From Cupriavidus oxalaticus (GTDB lineage Bacteria > Pseudomonadota > Gammaproteobacteria > Burkholderiales > Burkholderiaceae), in the NCBI RefSeq assembly GCF_004768545.1, contig NZ_CP038635.1, positions 3,187,501 to 3,251,500 on the forward strand: a DNA stretch of 64,000 bases. The letters run 5' to 3'. The notes beneath the pieces were generated by a model, which searched no databases, had not been told where the DNA came from, and worked only from the letters and a program-made list of their open reading frames with translations. Below, in pieces: positions 56,847-63,799 of this stretch (positions are counted from its first letter, which is position 1; every line of letters begins with the position of its first letter). Made by a program: the position numbers and the translations under genes.

Positions 56847-58514
56847 TTACCGCGCAATCGGCTTGTACCGAATCCGCTTCGGCTTGGCCCCTTCTTCACC
56901 CAGCCGCTTCTTCTTGTCCGCCTCGTATTCCTGGTAATTGCCCGGGAAGAACTCCACATGCGAGTCGCCCTCGAACGCCAGGATGTGCGTCGCGATCCGG
57001 TCCAGGAACCAGCGATCGTGCGAGATCACCATTACGCAGCCGGCGAACTCCAGCAGCGCATCTTCCAGAGCGCGCAGCGTTTCCACGTCGAGGTCGTTCG
57101 ACGGCTCGTCCAGCAGCAGTACGTTGCCGCCGGCGATCAGCGTCTTGGCCATGTGCAGGCGGCCGCGTTCGCCACCCGACAGCGTGCCGACCTGCTTTTG
57201 CTGGTCGCCGCCCTTGAAATTGAAGCGGCCGATATAGGCGCGCGACGGGGTTTCGTAACGGCCAACGGTCAGCACGTCGGCGCCGCCGGAGATTTCCTCG
57301 AATACGGTCTTGGTGCCGTCCAGCGCATCGCGGCTCTGGTCGACAAACGCCATCTTCACGGTCGGCCCGATCTTGATTTCGCCGCTGTCCGGCTGTTCCT
57401 TGCCGGTGAGCATCTTGAAGAACGTCGACTTGCCGGCGCCGTTCGGACCGATGATGCCGACAATGGCGCCCGGCGGCACCTTGAAGCTCAGGTTTTCGAT
57501 CAGCATGCGGTCGCCGAAACCCTTGCTGACGTTGTCGAACTCGATCACTTCGTTACCCAGGCGCTCACCGACCGGGATGAAGATTTCCTGGGTTTCGTTG
57601 CGCTTCTGGTATTCCTGGCTGTTGAGCTCGTCAAAGCGGGCCAGGCGCGCCTTGGACTTGGCCTGGCGGCCCTTGGGGTTCTGGCGCACCCACTCCAGTT
57701 CCTTGTGCAGGGCCTTCTGGCGCGCCGACTCGCTGGCCTCTTCCTGCTTCAGGCGCGCTTCCTTCTGGTCCAGCCACGAGCTGTAGTTGCCCTTCCAGGG
57801 GATGCCCTGCCCGCGGTCCAGCTCCAGGATCCACTCGGCGGCGTTGTCGAGGAAGTAGCGGTCGTGGGTCACGGCCACCACGGTGCCCGGGAAGCGCGTC
57901 AGGAACTGTTCCAGCCAGTCGACCGACTCGGCATCCAGGTGGTTGGTCGGTTCGTCGAGCAACAGCATGTCGGGGCGCGACAGCAGCAGGCGGCACAGCG
58001 CCACGCGGCGCTTTTCACCGCCGGACAGGTGGCCGATCTTCGCGTCCCACGGCGGCAGGCGCAGCGCGTCGGCGGCGATCTCCAGCTGCAGCTCGACGTT
58101 GTTGCCATCGCTGGCGGCCAGGATGGCTTCGTACTTGGCCTGGTCGGCGGCAAGCGCGTCGAAGTCGGCGTCCGGCTCGGCATAGGCGGCGTAGATCTCA
58201 TCGAGCTTCTTGCGCGCCTCGAACACGCCGCCCAGCGCCGCCTCCACCGATTCGCGCACGGTCTGCTCGGGATCGAGCTGCGGCTCCTGCGGCAGGTAGC
58301 CGATGTTCAGGTTCGGCATCGGCGTGGCCTCGCCCTCGATCTCCTTGTCGAGGCCGGCCATGATCTTGAGCAGCGTGGACTTGCCCGAGCCGTTCAGGCC
58401 CAGCACGCCGATCTTGGCGCCGGGGAAGAACGACAGCGAGATGTCCTTCAGGATGTGACGCTTGGGCGGAACGATCTTGCCCACGCGGTTCATGGTGAAA
58501 ACGTACTGTGCCAT
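56847..58514 (-). CDS. ettA: Energy-dependent translational throttle protein (ABC-F)
   Basis: A 555-residue ABC-F protein, the exact EttA size. Two ABC domains are present: Walker [12 protein letters not shown] and signature [16 protein letters not shown] in the first, [11 protein letters not shown] and [15 protein letters not shown] in the second, with the arm and the P-site tRNA-interaction linker between them (about 245-330). EttA binds the ribosomal E site and gates the first elongation step according to ATP level. The start [13 protein letters not shown] at 58514 matches the family. Confidence 0.96.
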
Positions 58515-58651
58515 GGGTGCGTGTTGGTGTTGGTGCGGGAATGGCGGGAGTGTATCAGGCACGCCGGCGCGCGCTGCCGGCCCCAGCCAGCTTTGGCCCC
58601 CGCCGGTACAATGGCAGGTTCGACTTTCCGCTGATTTTCCGAGCCATCGCC

Positions 58652-58870
58652 ATGAGCAGACCTGCCCTGACCCTGAAGTTCAAGTGCAAGAAGTGCGCGA
58701 AACCCGTCACCCTGTACCTGCAGAAGACGTCCGCGTGCTCGCACATCACCCCGTACCAGGGCTTCTGCAAATGCGGCGAGATGATGCGCCACGCCACCGG
58801 CGACAAGGATGCAGTCGAGTCCTTCGTGAACTCGCTGGACAACAGCTGGATGCATCACCATCACCACTAA
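58652..58870 (+). CDS. Small Cys-rich protein ending in five histidines
   Basis: A 72-residue protein, likely a zinc ribbon: CKKCAK, then a Cys at about 29 and CKC at about 39-41 give four or five cysteines that can bind a metal. The extreme C-terminus reads WMHHHHH followed by the stop. It is preceded by basic [10 protein letters not shown]. Its neighbours (a downstream metallopeptidase 13 bases after its stop, and the divergent ettA) suggest no specific pathway. The sequence flows naturally into genomic DNA, so the His tail is native. I do not recognise a named family. Confidence 0.75.
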
Positions 58871-58883
58871 GCAGGCTGCAGCA

Positions 58884-59414
58884 GTGACGGAAACCTGGCG
58901 CCCCGCCGGCAAGGACCCGATGCGCTTCCTGGGCGGCTATCCGCCCGAAGTGCTCGACCAGGTGCGCGAACTCGCCGCCGCCGGCCGCCTGGGCGACCAC
59001 CTCGCCCGCCGCTATCCCGGCCGCCATACCGTGCAGACCGATCGCGCGCTGTACGACTACGCCACCGAACTGAAGCAGGAATTTTTGCGCAGCGCGCCGC
59101 CGCTGCATAAGGTCGGCTTCGATGCCACGCTCGACTCGGCGCACAAGGCCTTGGGCCTGCACACCGCGATCTCGCGCGTGCAGGGCGGCAAGCTGAAAGC
59201 CAAGAAGGAAATCCGCGTGGCGTCGCTGTTCAAGGAAGCGCCGACGGAATTCCTGCGCATGATCGTCGTGCACGAGCTCTCGCACTTAAAGGAGAGCGAC
59301 CACAACAAGGCCTTCTACCGGCTCTGCGAACACATGGAGCCGCGCTACCACCAGCTGGAATTCGACACGCGCCTGTGGCTGGCGTGGCGCGAACTGGACA
59401 AGGCGGGAAGCTAG
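58884..59414 (+). CDS. YgjP-like metallopeptidase domain protein
   Basis: A 176-residue protein with the zinc site HELSHLKESDHNKAFY (HExxH then a downstream His), the signature of the M48-like YgjP/DUF45 family. Relatives are putative metallopeptidases or, in one case, UTP pyrophosphatase. A GTG at 58884 is the earliest start and ATG 58920 removes 12 residues; the first is only 13 bases after the Cys-rich gene. Translational coupling to that gene is likely. The N-terminal 60 residues are basic and helical. Confidence 0.82.
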   Translation: MTETWRPAGKDPMRFLGGYPPEVLDQVRELAAAGRLGDHLARRYPGRHTVQTDRALYDYATELKQEFLRSAPPLHKVGFDATLDSAHKALGLHTAISRVQGGKLKAKKEIRVASLFKEAPTEFLRMIVVHELSHLKESDHNKAFYRLCEHMEPRYHQLEFDTRLWLAWRELDKAGS

Positions 59415-59512
59415 TTACAGCTTCTTCGCGAATCGTCGGCCGGATTGGCGAAGTCGCATTACCGCCGGCAACGCGGCGGTAATGCACCTCCGCTTGGTGT
59501 GACTGCGAGCCC

Positions 59513-59965
59513 TCAATGAACCTGCATGCCGCGCATGGCATGTATCCGCTCATGCTGCCGCTTCAACGCGTCATATTGGCGCTGAAGTGTCGCGCTGGCA
59601 TCGGGTGGCAGTGTCTTCATCATGACGGACTGATACTCGCGCCTGGCGGCATCTTCCTCGTGCTCGCACATTCCCAGCACGGCGTCGTCGTTGTTTGGCT
59701 GCAGCATGTGACGGAACGCCATCCAGCCACGGAACAGCGTGCCATTCATGGTGCCCCGGTCGGTCGGCCGGCCGCCCATGGCACTGACCATCGATTGCAA
59801 TTCCTTCACCGACGCCCGGTAGGTGTCCGCCGTAGCGGTCAGGATGTCGCGAAGCTGTGCATCGCGCACTTCACCGGCACCGCTCATGCAGGCCAGTTCG
59901 CTGTCCTTGCCAGCTTCGATCAGCTGGTTCAGCGCCAAGACAGTTTGTTGCTGGTTGTCGCCCAT
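59513..59965 (-). CDS. PA2169-type four-helix-bundle protein (DUF2383-like)
   Basis: A 150-residue all-helical protein beginning MGDNQQQTVLALNQLIEAGKDSE. The spacing of helices and the central motif YRASVKELQSMVSAMGGRP with FRGWM match PA2169/DUF2383 proteins, which have a ferritin-like bundle. A Cys in LACMSGAG and acidic residues might bind metal. GGGAGAATGCC is the ribosome site. The frame continues upstream to 60238 but the sequence there is unlike the domain. Relatives are often linked to stress; function is unestablished. Confidence 0.78.
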   Translation of the reverse strand: MGDNQQQTVLALNQLIEAGKDSELACMSGAGEVRDAQLRDILTATADTYRASVKELQSMVSAMGGRPTDRGTMNGTLFRGWMAFRHMLQPNNDDAVLGMCEHEEDAARREYQSVMMKTLPPDASATLQRQYDALKRQHERIHAMRGMQVH

Positions 59966-60336
59966 GGCATTCTCCCAACACGCATTCAGGCGACGCGCAG
60001 CTTTGGCGCCGCCAGGTAAGCCAAAGGAGGAACCGCCGCCGCGTAACCGGCCGTGAGAGCGGCGTCGCAGACGCCATCGACATGAATCAGCTGGTTCGCG
60101 CCGGGCCCCGTTTGCCTGCTCGTTCAGAGGTAAGGCGTGACTACATGATAGGAGATGGCTGAAGCCCGGCGGGATGGCGCCGGCGCCACGATCCCAAGGG
60201 GCTATGCTTGAGCGGCAGCAGGAGTACAAGCGGATCATGCGCCATCCACACCTTCAGCCCGGCGCACTCTGGCCGGCCCTCGTGCAGCGCCCCCCTCCCC
60301 CAGAGGGCGGCGACAGCGGAGCCTTAGACGGGCCGT
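59966..60336. other. Gene-free gap between the four-helix protein and UPF0182 gene
   Basis: The 371 bases contain only incidental open frames with no start signal and no similarity I recognise. A GC stretch (about 60286-60310, with CCCCCCTCCCCCAGAGGGCGG) may be a weak hairpin at the end of the UPF0182 transcript. Confidence 0.5.
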
Positions 60337-63066
60337 TCACCTTTGCCTGTCGGCACCCCCGCCCCCGAGCGCCTCAAGCAGCGGCCGCAAGGCATCGAGT
60401 TCCGCGCCGAAGCCGGCCCAGTCCCCTGCTTTCAGGCGCTCGATGGCGCGGTCATAGTGCGCGAGTGCCTCGCGCGCACGGGTGTTCGCAGCGCCCTGCT
60501 CAAATATCGCCACCGGGGCGGATCCCCCGAAAAGGGCCGCAAGGGCCGCGCCCAGGGTGTCCTCCATGGCCACGCGATCACCATAGGCGGCGATCACCCG
60601 CTTCAGTTCGGGTAACTGGCCGGACTCCGCGCGCAGGTAGAGCGGCGAGACATAGAGGATGGAATTCTCGATCGGCACGACCTGCAGATGGCCGCGGATG
60701 ACGCGCGAGCCCATCTGGTTCCACAGCGAAATCTGCTGCGAGATCTCGGTATTCTGCTGGATGCGCGCCTCGATCTGGAACGGCCCGTAGACCAGCTTCT
60801 CCTTGGGGAAGGTGTAGGCGACAAGCTTGCCGTAGTTGGGCGGATCGGAGCGCGCCGCGAGCCACGCGATCATGTTCTCGCGCTGGCTGGGCACCATCGG
60901 CAGCATGAGCACGAACTCGGCGCTCGCTTCCTCAGGCAGCCGCAGGATCATGTAGTAGGGCATCATCCGCTCGGCGGGCGTGTTCCCTGCGCTCATGCCC
61001 GACAACTGGCGCGGGAACTCCCAGAGATCCTCGCGGTTATAGAAGACTTCCGCCGCTTCCATGTGGTAGGCGCGGTAGATCTGCGCCTGGACCAGGAACA
61101 GGTCTTCCGGGTAGCGGATATGCCGCTGCAGGTCCCGCGGCATTGCGCCCAGCGGCCTGAACATGCCCGGGAAGATGCGCTGGTACACCCGCAGGATTGG
61201 ATCAGCGGGGTCGCTGACGTAGAAGTCCACCGTGCCGTTGTAGGCATCGATCACTACCTTGACTGCGTTGCGAATGTAGTTGTCGCCGTCGCCGGTGCCA
61301 GGCTGCGAGTAAGGGAACCAGCGGCTGGTGGTGTAGGCGTCCTGGATCCAGTAAAGGCGCCCGTCGCTTGCCACGATATAGGGGTCGCGGTCGAGGATGA
61401 GGAACGGGGCAATCGTGCGCACCCGGTCCCGGATGTTGCGATGGAGCAGGATGCGGCTCTGCGGCGTGATGTAGCCGCTCAGCAGGATATTGGGATCGTC
61501 GAGCTGCCAGGCAAACAGGACCCGGCGCGCCAGGCTGCCGACGTCGATGCCGTCGCGCCCGCGGTAGGCCGTATAGACGTTGTCCTTGCCCTTGGGGTAG
61601 TCGAACTCGGGCACACTGCCGTTGACGATGACATAGCCTTTGCCGCCTTCTCCGAAGTAGAGGCGCGGCTCGTGGATGACCGGGCCGCCGTCGGAGAGCG
61701 GTGGAATGTCATGCAGATAGAGCAAGGGCAGGCCTTCGGCGGATTTCTCGGTGACCGGCGACATGACCACGCCATTGCCATGGGTGAACAAGAGATGCAG
61801 GTTCACCCAGGTCTGGGCATTGGGCGGGATCAGCGCCGGCTCCAGCTCCCGCGCCGACAGCATGACCTGCTGGTAACCGGCGTCGAGTTGGTAGCGGTCG
61901 ATATCCGTCGCGAGGAACTTGTAATAGGTCCTGATCTCCTGCAGCTGCGCATAGGTATCGCGCAGCGGCTGCAGGTCCCACAGACGGATATTGTCGATGG
62001 TCGGGCGATTGGCCTGGAGTGAGGCAAGATTCAGGCTCTGTTCGACCGGGAACGGCTTTGCCTCGATCTGCGTTACGCCATAGGCCTCACGTGTCAGCGC
62101 GATATTGTGTTCGAGGTACGGCGTCTCCAGTTGCAGTTCGTTGGGCTTGACATAGAATCGCTGGAACAGCGCCGGATAGACCGTGCCGAGCAGGAACGCG
62201 CTGCCGGCCACCAGGATTGCCCCGGCCGCAGGCACCCGGTAGTCCCGCCAGCGCAGATAGGCCCATGAAGCGGCGGCAGCCGCGGCAGACAGGCTGCACT
62301 GCAGCCACAGGACCGGCAGCCCCACATGGATGTCGGTATAGCTCGCGCCGACCACGACGCCGTTGTCGCCATAGAGAAGAAGGTAGCGGTCAAGCCAGTA
62401 GGACCACGCCTGCAACGCGAAGAACAAGCCCAGCAACGCGGCAGCATGGATAGCGGCCGCCGCTGAAAGCCCGCGCGGCGGCTGGACCAGCGCGATATCG
62501 CCGCGCAACCCATAGACCGCGCCGGCAATCACTGCGCAGCAGCCCAGCAGCAGGAGCAGCCAGTTCCTGAGTGCCAGATACGCAGGCAGCGAGAAGAAGT
62601 AGAAGCCGATGTCCTTGCCGAAGATCGGATCGGACTTTCCGAATGGAACCTGATTGATGTAGCGCAGCGCAGTGTCCCAGCTCGACAGCTCTCCGACGGC
62701 CATCAGCAGCCCTACAAAGACGGCAACGCCGGCAATGGCGGCGCGCCAGGGCAGGCGCATCGCCATCTCGCCGACCGGTTCGCCCCGGGCCTCCGGCGTC
62801 CAGGCCTGCGCCTGCCTCGCGCAGCGGTGCGCCAGCCAGCCCGATACCCAGATCGCACCCGCCGACACGCCGAAGACGGCAAGCAACAGCACCGCCTGGG
62901 TCGAGAATATGGTGCGGAAAACCCCGGCGTAGCCAACGGAGGTAAACCACAGCCAGTCAACGATGAGGTCGCTGACGCGCCCGGCAGCGACCAGCGCGAC
63001 GATGACGGCCACTACCCAGGTCGCGGGGCGTCTCAGGCGCGTGGCATCCATCGCTGGCGAGCGCAT
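60337..63066 (-). CDS. UPF0182 family membrane protein
   Basis: A 909-residue protein, the family's typical size. Seven hydrophobic helices fill about residues 12-305, after which comes a large soluble part with the family's recognisable stretches (IDRYQLD, YGEGGKGYVIVNGSVPEFDYP-like YFGEGGKGYVIVNGSV, and a long RVIRGHLQVVPIENSILYVSPLYL run). The soluble part is likely extracytoplasmic. Function is unknown. Two close starts (63066 and 63051) are possible. It is divergent from the structured RNA and small gene to the right. Confidence 0.93.
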   Translation of the reverse strand: MRSPAMDATRLRRPATWVVAVIVALVAAGRVSDLIVDWLWFTSVGYAGVFRTIFSTQAVLLLAVFGVSAGAIWVSGWLAHRCARQAQAWTPEARGEPVGEMAMRLPWRAAIAGVAVFVGLLMAVGELSSWDTALRYINQVPFGKSDPIFGKDIGFYFFSLPAYLALRNWLLLLLGCCAVIAGAVYGLRGDIALVQPPRGLSAAAAIHAAALLGLFFALQAWSYWLDRYLLLYGDNGVVVGASYTDIHVGLPVLWLQCSLSAAAAAASWAYLRWRDYRVPAAGAILVAGSAFLLGTVYPALFQRFYVKPNELQLETPYLEHNIALTREAYGVTQIEAKPFPVEQSLNLASLQANRPTIDNIRLWDLQPLRDTYAQLQEIRTYYKFLATDIDRYQLDAGYQQVMLSARELEPALIPPNAQTWVNLHLLFTHGNGVVMSPVTEKSAEGLPLLYLHDIPPLSDGGPVIHEPRLYFGEGGKGYVIVNGSVPEFDYPKGKDNVYTAYRGRDGIDVGSLARRVLFAWQLDDPNILLSGYITPQSRILLHRNIRDRVRTIAPFLILDRDPYIVASDGRLYWIQDAYTTSRWFPYSQPGTGDGDNYIRNAVKVVIDAYNGTVDFYVSDPADPILRVYQRIFPGMFRPLGAMPRDLQRHIRYPEDLFLVQAQIYRAYHMEAAEVFYNREDLWEFPRQLSGMSAGNTPAERMMPYYMILRLPEEASAEFVLMLPMVPSQRENMIAWLAARSDPPNYGKLVAYTFPKEKLVYGPFQIEARIQQNTEISQQISLWNQMGSRVIRGHLQVVPIENSILYVSPLYLRAESGQLPELKRVIAAYGDRVAMEDTLGAALAALFGGSAPVAIFEQGAANTRAREALAHYDRAIERLKAGDWAGFGAELDALRPLLEALGGGGADRQR

Positions 63067-63379
63067 CGATCATGCTCCTTTGCCGCACTGTCGTCCGTGA
63101 CCTGCTTGCCTGTGCGATAGCTGCCGCGCGACAATGCGTGGGTCCGGGCGAATTGTGCAGTCTGATTCATTGTAGGCGAGACGATCGGGAGACAGCGAGC
63201 CGTGCCGCCGGGGAAGCCATGCAAAAGGCGCCAGCGCGCCGGCGTGGGCGGGTTGAGGGAGGAGGGGTTTCGGTGTTTGGCTATTTGCCGGCGAACGGCA
63301 CTCAGGCAGGATGCGGCGTCCGTATGGGAATGCGAAGTGTCTTATCGAATCGCGAGCCAAGGCGCGAGAGACTGAGGCC
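63067..63379. other. Non-coding upstream region of the structured RNA
   Basis: The 313 bases between the UPF0182 start and the first RNA hairpin show no credible gene; frames there are short and lack start signals. The last part is AT-richer (around 63275-63350) and could hold the promoter of the RNA. Confidence 0.4.
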
Positions 63380-63540
63380 GTCATCGAACAACGATGACCG
63401 GGTGTGGAAGCCCGCGTGTCACAGTTTGATAGTCGCCGTTGGCGACCTTCTTGCCCATTCGGGCTAGCCATTGCTTTATGGCGGGCCGGACGAGACAGCC
63501 GCAAGGCTGACCGGCATTGGCTGTGACACCGGGCTTCCAC
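63380..63540 (+). ncRNA. Multi-hairpin structured RNA, resembling phage C4-type immunity RNA
   Basis: GTCATCG/CGATGAC (63380-63398) is a leading hairpin. A long stem follows: 63404-63414 plus 63416-63423 pair with 63522-63540, 19 base pairs with only C63415 bulged. Inside it are GTCGCC-GTT-GGCGAC (63432-63446), GCCC-ATTC-GGGC (63453-63464) and a composite stem GCCGG/CCGGC (63485-63489, 63511-63515) capped by CAGCC-GCAA-GGCTG with a GNRA loop. A short frame, ATG at 63478, reads MAGRTRQPQG and stops. From memory this resembles the Icd-like/C4 antisense immunity region of P1-type phages; not checked. It ends 70 bases before the small gene at 63611. Confidence 0.62.
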
Positions 63541-63610
63541 CCTCGTTGTCAGGCCCGCCGCCCTCCCCTCACGTCGCGCGGCAGGCCTTCATCCAACGAT
63601 CGGAGGTCAT

Positions 63611-63799
63611 ATGTCGGGAAACTCGTTATCCACAGCGGCACGGCTGAATCTTGAGTCATTGGCGGCGGGCATCGAAGGCGTGCTTGGCATGCTGGACCAG
63701 TTGTGCGACGCATCCGAAGGCTGCTTCAGTGCGCTTTGCCTGCTTCGACTGTTGAAGGCGCAGCTGGAAGGCATATTGGCGGAGGAGCTTGCCGCCTGA
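63611..63799 (+). CDS. Small helical protein of unknown function (DUF1484-like)
   Basis: A 62-residue protein with a strong ribosome site (CGGAGG) six bases before ATG. It is amphipathic helix throughout (LNLESLAAGIEGVLGMLDQLCDAS, then LLRLLKAQLEGILAEEL) with two Cys around a SEGCFSALC turn. It reminds me of DUF1484 proteins of Ralstonia and Cupriavidus, though I cannot confirm this. It follows the structured RNA, so it may be controlled by it. Function unknown. Confidence 0.6.
   Translation: MSGNSLSTAARLNLESLAAGIEGVLGMLDQLCDASEGCFSALCLLRLLKAQLEGILAEELAA

Follow-up and report, generated by a model that had tools for sequence, protein, structure and literature searches.

The window, the whole 64,000-nucleotide stretch of Cupriavidus oxalaticus DNA that we analysed, carries close to its 3' end a leader with a target element, a C4 antisense RNA and a gene for a 62-residue protein with the Shine-Dalgarno sequence GGAGG (Table 1). 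A preliminary description of this DNA, made from its letters alone, had likened the region to a phage C4/Icd immunity element upstream of a small gene and had suggested an Rfam scan; the scan gives a C4 match above the cut-off, and the small frame is present where it had been placed. The two leader families in the table were matched under relaxed limits. The isrK-like leader is made up of a hairpin at 63380-63398, the b1 hairpin at 63399-63414, the a1 segment at 63416-63424 and a third hairpin at 63432-63446 with a weak T tail, and it ends 21 nt ahead of the C4 RNA (63452 to 63474). No consensus terminator was found on the plus strand at this leader, and no sigma-70-like promoter at the window module. 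Within the target element, the box GA.AC.TG..GTCATCG..CG.TGACCGGG.GTGGAA.CCCG is conserved across 25 modules aligned and compared by eye.

Table 1. Coordinates of the features identified at the C4 locus of the window.
Feature	Position	Strand	Basis
c4-a1b1-like target element (leader hairpin and b1 hairpin)	63367..63418	+	RF03163, 30.2 bits, below the cut-off of 46.7
isrK-like leader RNA	63380..63452	+	RF01394, 34.5 bits, below the cut-off of 50
Target arm, b1 and a1	63404..63424	+	20 pairs (63404-63414 and 63416-63424 with 63521-63540), C63415 bulged
C4 antisense RNA	63474..63565	+	RF01695, 50.3 bits, cut-off 45
C4 P2 hairpin, GCAA loop	63496..63509	+	Sequence and Rfam C4 match
C4 guide a' (P3 loop)	63515..63528	+	Closed by CCGG 63511-63514 / 63529-63532
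C4 guide b'	63533..63542	+	Rfam C4 match
Possible hairpin GGCCTTC/GGAGGTC masking the Shine-Dalgarno	63584..63608	+	Weak
62-residue protein, predicted helical hairpin, remote DUF1484 relative	63611..63799	+	dN/dS, profile match, structure model

Structure of the RNA and its target

The predicted folding energy of region 63330-63620 is -136.5 kcal/mol (z -4.5), a value reached by none of 200 shuffled sequences, which bears out the earlier impression of pairing far beyond chance. The minus strand of the same region is comparable (z -4.4) and, because it folds equally well, folding alone does not give the strand. A separate hairpin had been described ahead of a 19-bp stem with one bulged C, and is present. 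The stem itself is real, with 20 pairs, but it is not the closing helix of the C4 RNA, and the minimum-energy fold shows four hairpins inside it (63432-63446, 63453-63464, 63467-63482 and 63496-63509) where three had been counted, one of them with the GNRA loop that had been noted.

The long stem is the complementarity between a guide and its target. C4 guides comprise a', the P3 loop, and b', the single strand after P3, and the 3' arm of the stem is this guide, taking in the P3 loop, the 3' strand of P3 and the single strand that follows; the 5' arm is its target, a1/b1. The long stem and the C4 fold are therefore mutually exclusive in one molecule. The duplex of guide and target, with its 20 pairs, has an energy of -53.9 kcal/mol, against -24.8 to -33.6 for the same guide with the other five leaders of the genome. 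Covariation supports the P1/P2 fold of C4: across 53 non-redundant C4 RNAs of the genus, 98.6% of cells are paired and two-sided changes occur in 11 of 18 pairs, in a structure predicted from that same alignment, which did not recover P3, its loop being variable. The compensatory changes proposed earlier as a check are thus found in C4 stems, and they occur in guide/target pairs as well. The C4 RNA at this locus is genuine and sits in a module of the chromosome that belongs to a large family; the RNA family itself is known.

The inner short frame beginning MAGRTRQPQG, previously taken for the start of an Icd-like peptide, exists (63478-63510) but is the C4 RNA's own 5' part. An Icd-like arrangement was read by eye in a sister module (L001, 1571-1760), in which the Shine-Dalgarno region of a 33-codon leader frame pairs with the C4 guide and the stop of the frame overlaps the start of a 96-residue gene; an Icd-like leader peptide seems to exist in that module and not at the window.

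Genomic surroundings and distribution of C4 modules

In agreement with the preliminary description, no phage surroundings were seen when 13 window frames between 38.4 and 63.1 kb were scanned. No structural, lysis or integration PHROG was matched by these frames, the one exception being an ABC ATPase that weakly cross-matches a terminase family. Pfam matches in the neighbours are to a chloride channel, an AMP-binding enzyme, MatE, an outer-membrane efflux protein, an AcrB-type pump, a phosphoesterase, an ABC-F-like ATPase, a YgjP-like peptidase, DUF2383 and UPF0182, and three of the 13 frames have none.

A P1-type immunity region (c4-icd-ant) has an Icd frame, an antirepressor gene and phage surroundings. 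We considered this assignment for the window and rejected it, as the short frame lies inside C4, the 62-residue protein matches no PHROG and no phage neighbours were seen among the 13 frames scanned.

The C. oxalaticus genome has six C4 places. Under stricter filters, C4 is present in 40 of 60 genomes of the genus (its own included), with up to 11 per genome, and in 44 of the 300 genomes of a spread sample of the order. Two genomes from other genera of the order (G158 and G133) have 14 and 11 C4 places, and one locus of each was inspected (L150 and L158). We fetched 115 modules from the genus and analysed 114, leaving out L022, which ends at a contig end; these are part of the C4 places listed, picked by score and genome rather than at random. 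An ATG frame of at least 40 codons starts 38-60 nt past the C4 end in 83 of the 114. In a profile search that counted frames anywhere in the fetched stretch, with family profiles built from 36 proteins of which 33 come from the same modules, 69 modules carry a DUF1484-superfamily frame, 22 a member of the 96-residue family and 23 neither; one of the latter (L099) carries a phage antirepressor (Bro-N). The earlier suggestion that the host has domesticated an immunity RNA fits these data, linkage between C4 and a small gene recurring in many species. Near another C4 module (L005), two equal-scoring tRNA genes lie at 868-951 and 1087-1170.

Coevolution of guide and target

The downstream flank of the window locus is common to four genomes (L006, L041, L115 and L036) and is 90-94% identical between L006/L041 and L115/L036; upstream, the flanks of the orthologues do not match the window beyond about 63266-63311. 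In L006 and L041, the core of guide and target consists of CTGTGACAC paired with GTGTCACAG or GTGTTACAG; in L115 and L036, it consists of GAATGC or GAAATGC paired with GCATTTC. Between these two pairs of genomes, a' and a1 have switched together. Since b' is common to both types, cross-type pairing is weakened and not abolished: the L006 guide pairs at -52.5 with its own leader, -42.9 with that of L115 and -40.9 with that of L036, and for the L115 guide the values are -34.5 (own leader) and -30.0 (L006 leader). Across the six pairs among the four orthologues, the 62-residue gene is under purifying selection (dN/dS 0.08-0.22).

Two side observations concern this neighbourhood. In a fifth genome, G046 (L081), a leader and a C4 of another guide type precede the downstream flank of the window locus, and the 62-residue gene is missing. 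In Cupriavidus sp. amp6, which also matches window positions 57649-59407, the stretch 59407-63311 with the UPF0182 gene is unmatched, and 935 bases lie there between the matching flanks.

In 48 non-redundant modules of the genus, guides pair with their own upstream leader at a mean of -38.8 kcal/mol and with those of others at -29.3; none of 10,000 permutations was as low, and for 23 of the 48 guides the own leader is the best partner of all. Downstream of C4, the cognate excess is smaller (-28.2 against -26.0). Within the 16 genomes for which four or more modules were in hand, the own leader is the guide's best partner in the genome for 82 of 94 modules, where 16 would be expected, and it beats the mean of the other leaders in 92; the guide boundary of L005 had been set by hand ahead of the pairing test. 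The remaining 12, among them L003 and L004 of C. oxalaticus, pair better with another leader of the same genome. Because the own leader is best in 82 of 94, same-genome copies are largely insulated from one another.

The second target at the Shine-Dalgarno

In phage systems, C4 also targets the ribosome-binding site of the gene that follows it, a feature outside the Rfam model. We compared a' with the Shine-Dalgarno region by protein type, the types and classes I/II being patterns of our own making under which L115, with a window-type gene, was sorted as 'other'. Matching runs of at least six occur in 5 of 5 distinct loops of the 116-residue type, 1 of 1 of the 154-168-residue type and 9 of 14 of the long DUF1484 type, against 2 of 18 window-type loops (L082 and L091) and 0 of 15 of the 70-91-residue type. 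For the 18 window-type loops, the mean longest run is 4.1 at the Shine-Dalgarno (3.9 for non-cognate pairs) and 7.6 upstream (4.9 for non-cognate pairs), and the upstream match is kept in 14 of the 18 and in 14 of the 15 loops of the 70-91-residue type. At the window itself, the longest run of a' with the Shine-Dalgarno is 4, and a second target is not seen. The window's subfamily has thus mostly lost the Shine-Dalgarno target and kept the upstream one, while in vioS, in most long DUF1484 genes and at the L099 phage antirepressor the guide that matches upstream also matches the Shine-Dalgarno region. At the window, a local hairpin may instead cover the Shine-Dalgarno; masking runs of at least six occur in 66 of the 83 modules, with a mean of 6.5 against 5.4 for shuffled spacers, a weak signal.

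The 62-residue protein and the DUF1484 superfamily

The 62-residue protein matches no Pfam, NCBIfam or PHROG model, and the sole match reported for it in the named genome collection is in Cupriavidus sp. amp6, with 89% identity. Pfam DUF1484 (PF07363) is not matched by it, and one 76-residue relative scores 20.9 against a cut-off of 21.2. Profile comparison links the 62-residue group to the long DUF1484 group (95.0%, E 3.5e-8, over 48 columns of the C-terminal half) and to the 70-91-residue group (98.9%), which in turn matches the long group (98.2%, E 3.9e-14). The DUF1484 profile was built by us from 12 proteins, all encoded behind C4 RNAs, and five proteins in it or in its groups match Pfam DUF1484 individually. 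By these profiles, the 62-residue protein is a remote DUF1484 relative. Its structure model, computed from the single sequence, is a two-helix hairpin (pLDDT 87.4).

Conversely, a C4 lies within 450 nt upstream on the same strand at no fewer than 33 of the 56 DUF1484 places of the genus, and at 21 of the 23 strongest, as judged from a subset of the genus C4 list together with direct scans. Of the 23 places with no C4 in that distance, 13 were scanned directly and had none; among the other ten, one (G017:C61) has a C4 at 455 nt. DUF1484 is rare in the order sample (six loci in 5 of 300 genomes), where three loci, from genus g82, lie behind C4 RNAs of 66-78 bits and three have no C4. At L117, a DUF1484-like gene behind a C4 adjoins a primase and a phage transcription regulator; at L118, the neighbours of such a gene are an integrase and a tRNA gene. 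DUF1484/C4 modules therefore also occur in apparent mobile elements, a hint at the origin of the chromosomal ones.

vioS behind a C4

VioS is the one studied DUF1484 member in the literature we found; in the cited portions of the sources, it acts as a repressor of violacein and reportedly binds CviR (PMC5339254, PMC11019928 and the review PMC13043044). A published vioS primer, allowed up to two mismatches, was searched in 61 genomes of the family of G311 and matched in 24, exactly in G379 only. There (L186), all six published vioS primers match without mismatch, along with a 138-residue frame of the published length that scores 163.5 bits against DUF1484. A C4 of 53.4 bits lies upstream, and the vioS ATG is 52 nt past its end.

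Among 30 fetched loci, 15 have vioS-like frames, 10 of these with a C4 above the cut-off and 5 with none. The ten fall into three guide types (6, 3 and 1 loci), and in each type a' has two matches, one at a site upstream and one in the stretch leading into the vioS Shine-Dalgarno. In type 1, CTCCTGGAT matches ATTCAGG (one G-U) and ATCCAGGAG, respectively; in type 2, CCTTAGG matches CCTAAGG at both; and in type 3 (L201 alone), GGTGAAG matches CTTCACC at both. L187 was left out of the leader alignment. By energy, types 1 and 3 are not separated upstream, where b' dominates, and the type 3 guide is unselective downstream. Three-way agreement of this kind, in three types, is not easily accounted for unless the guide pairs at each of the two sites, though the leaders may have been exchanged whole, as blocks.

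Several vioS-like loci vary upstream of the gene. L176, L182, L185 and L188 have an unrelated upstream region with no C4 and the same sequence from the Shine-Dalgarno GAGGG onward. In genus g66, four genomes have two vioS-like copies each (L179/L199, L177/L198, L181/L200 and L182/L201), and the upstream types differ within all four pairs.

Discussion

Our comparison of sequences identifies a C4 RNA at this locus, cognate coevolution of guides and targets, and a recurrent linkage to small genes. We consider it probable, at roughly 70%, that the locus forms a self-contained C4 module of the chromosome that keeps the 62-residue gene at a low level. In the mechanism that we infer, the locus would be transcribed as one RNA comprising the target-bearing leader, the C4 antisense RNA and the 62-residue gene; C4 would be cut out of this transcript by RNase P and would pair through both guides with the a1/b1 target of the leader, repressing the gene. 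Since the window's subfamily mostly lost the second site, C4 most likely acts at the leader only, through premature termination or by keeping the leader shut, a preference that we hold tentatively, at a little under even odds. By likeness to P1/P7 C4 and to the P4 CI RNA, its effect would fall on the leader, ahead of the gene. A single transcriptional unit has a parallel in Burkholderia cenocepacia J2315, where, according to extracts of the source, an 81-nt isrK with a terminator and a 90-nt C4 lie 22 nt apart in one unit, their lengths inferred from RNA-seq (PMC4603805).

Covariation with the upstream site alone cannot separate an antisense RNA acting in trans from a stem formed in cis. A riboswitch-like leader, in which the long stem alternates with the C4 fold and the isrK-like RNA activates translation in trans, would accord with the place of the long stem in the minimum-energy fold, with Gifsy-1 IsrK, described as working in this way through a terminated short form and a read-through mRNA (PMC4825925, in part), and with the listing of B. 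cenocepacia isrK as a separate 81-nt RNA with a terminator (PMC4603805, in part). We regard it as unlikely, since one cis stem cannot explain the two sites per guide in vioS and in most long DUF1484 modules; besides, the hairpin in the place of the terminator is followed by no more than a weak run of T, and the plus strand yielded no consensus terminator. For the window's own branch, a cis switch of the IsrK type keeps some probability.

Two other readings give the small gene a different part. A type I toxin-antitoxin pair, with a toxic 62-residue protein and C4 as its antitoxin RNA, would account for a small protein, an antisense RNA and several mutually distinct copies per genome, but C4 is encoded in the leader, on the gene's own strand, and not across the gene, the predicted helical hairpin shows no obvious membrane helix by eye, the studied relative, VioS, has a regulatory role and could be expressed in E. 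coli (PMC5339254, PMC13043044, as far as cited here), and L081 keeps its C4 though the gene is gone; we hold this to be improbable. That C4 and the small gene are functionless leftovers of a decayed prophage is very improbable given a dN/dS of 0.08-0.22, guides and targets that still coevolve and up to 11 C4 places per genome, even though C4 is a phage-type RNA, L117 and L118 lie beside a primase and phage regulator and beside an integrase and tRNA gene, and L081 has lost the small gene. A chromosomal C4 module acting on its own leader remains our preferred reading.

As to what the module controls, the 62-residue protein would most likely be a small helical anti-regulator that binds another regulator in the way VioS binds CviR, a proposal by analogy to which we give slightly less than even chances. 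More broadly, we put at about one in two the chance that C4 is a general chromosomal switch for DUF1484 anti-regulators in Burkholderiales, setting the quorum threshold of Chromobacterium through vioS, with the window's branch using the upstream target only and switching guides insulating up to eleven copies. Tetracycline lowers vioS mRNA, according to the cited part of PMC7240160. A C4-controlled leader could explain this effect, and, if the switch is real, C4 control of vioS may be why translation inhibitors lower vioS mRNA. It would add an RNA layer to quorum-sensing control in Chromobacterium that goes unmentioned in the text of the VioS papers as far as it was available: in word searches of that text, 'antisense' is absent from PMC7240160 and PMC11019928, and 'sRNA' and 'small RNA' from PMC5339254.

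Reports of C4 RNAs in bacterial chromosomes go back to 2010 (PMC2864571, in part), and a host role has been proposed in the literature we found, without demonstration there. Our analysis ties C4 RNAs to vioS and to one small-protein family, with a coevolved target for every copy. It offers a case in which the conversion of a phage immunity RNA into a host regulator can be tested, and the specificity types across species are natural compensatory mutants. We met no link between C4 and DUF1484 or vioS in literature searches, none of which paired those terms; nor did these searches meet the insulated multi-copy design or the upstream-only branch.

Among known systems, the P1/P7 C4, as described in extracts of PMC5320573, has the same fold, a' and b' guides and an upstream a1/b1-like target, and the position of the gene start, 38-60 nt beyond C4 in 83 of the 114 modules, recalls it. 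Unlike in P1/P7, no phage genes were seen beside the window's module, which has no antirepressor, Icd or Shine-Dalgarno target. Gifsy-1 isrK-orf45-anrP (PMC4825925, in part) shares the leader order of two hairpins, target and third hairpin, whereas at the window the isrK score of 34.5 is under the cut-off of 50, the terminator is weak and a small DUF1484-like gene takes the place of orf45-anrP. The vioS gene likewise lies behind a C4 and the protein families are similar by profile, but VioS is a full DUF1484 protein of 138 residues whose leader has both targets, and the window's 62-residue protein aligns with the C-terminal half only. In the P4 CI RNA with seqA/seqC, likened here by description and not by sequence, a processed RNA pairs upstream and causes premature termination (PMC4825925, in part), which is the model we favour. 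Closest in genomic setting are the Group 1 C4-like sRNAs of Acinetobacter baumannii, which, in the cited part of PMC5320573, likewise have many chromosomal copies with differing a' and are proposed to be co-opted; C4-like RNAs of that species are highly expressed and apparently cut at the C4 5' end. Their targets were left open, whereas here a matching target lies beside each copy, usually with a small gene, in what resembles a phage immunity system taken over by the host for its own use.
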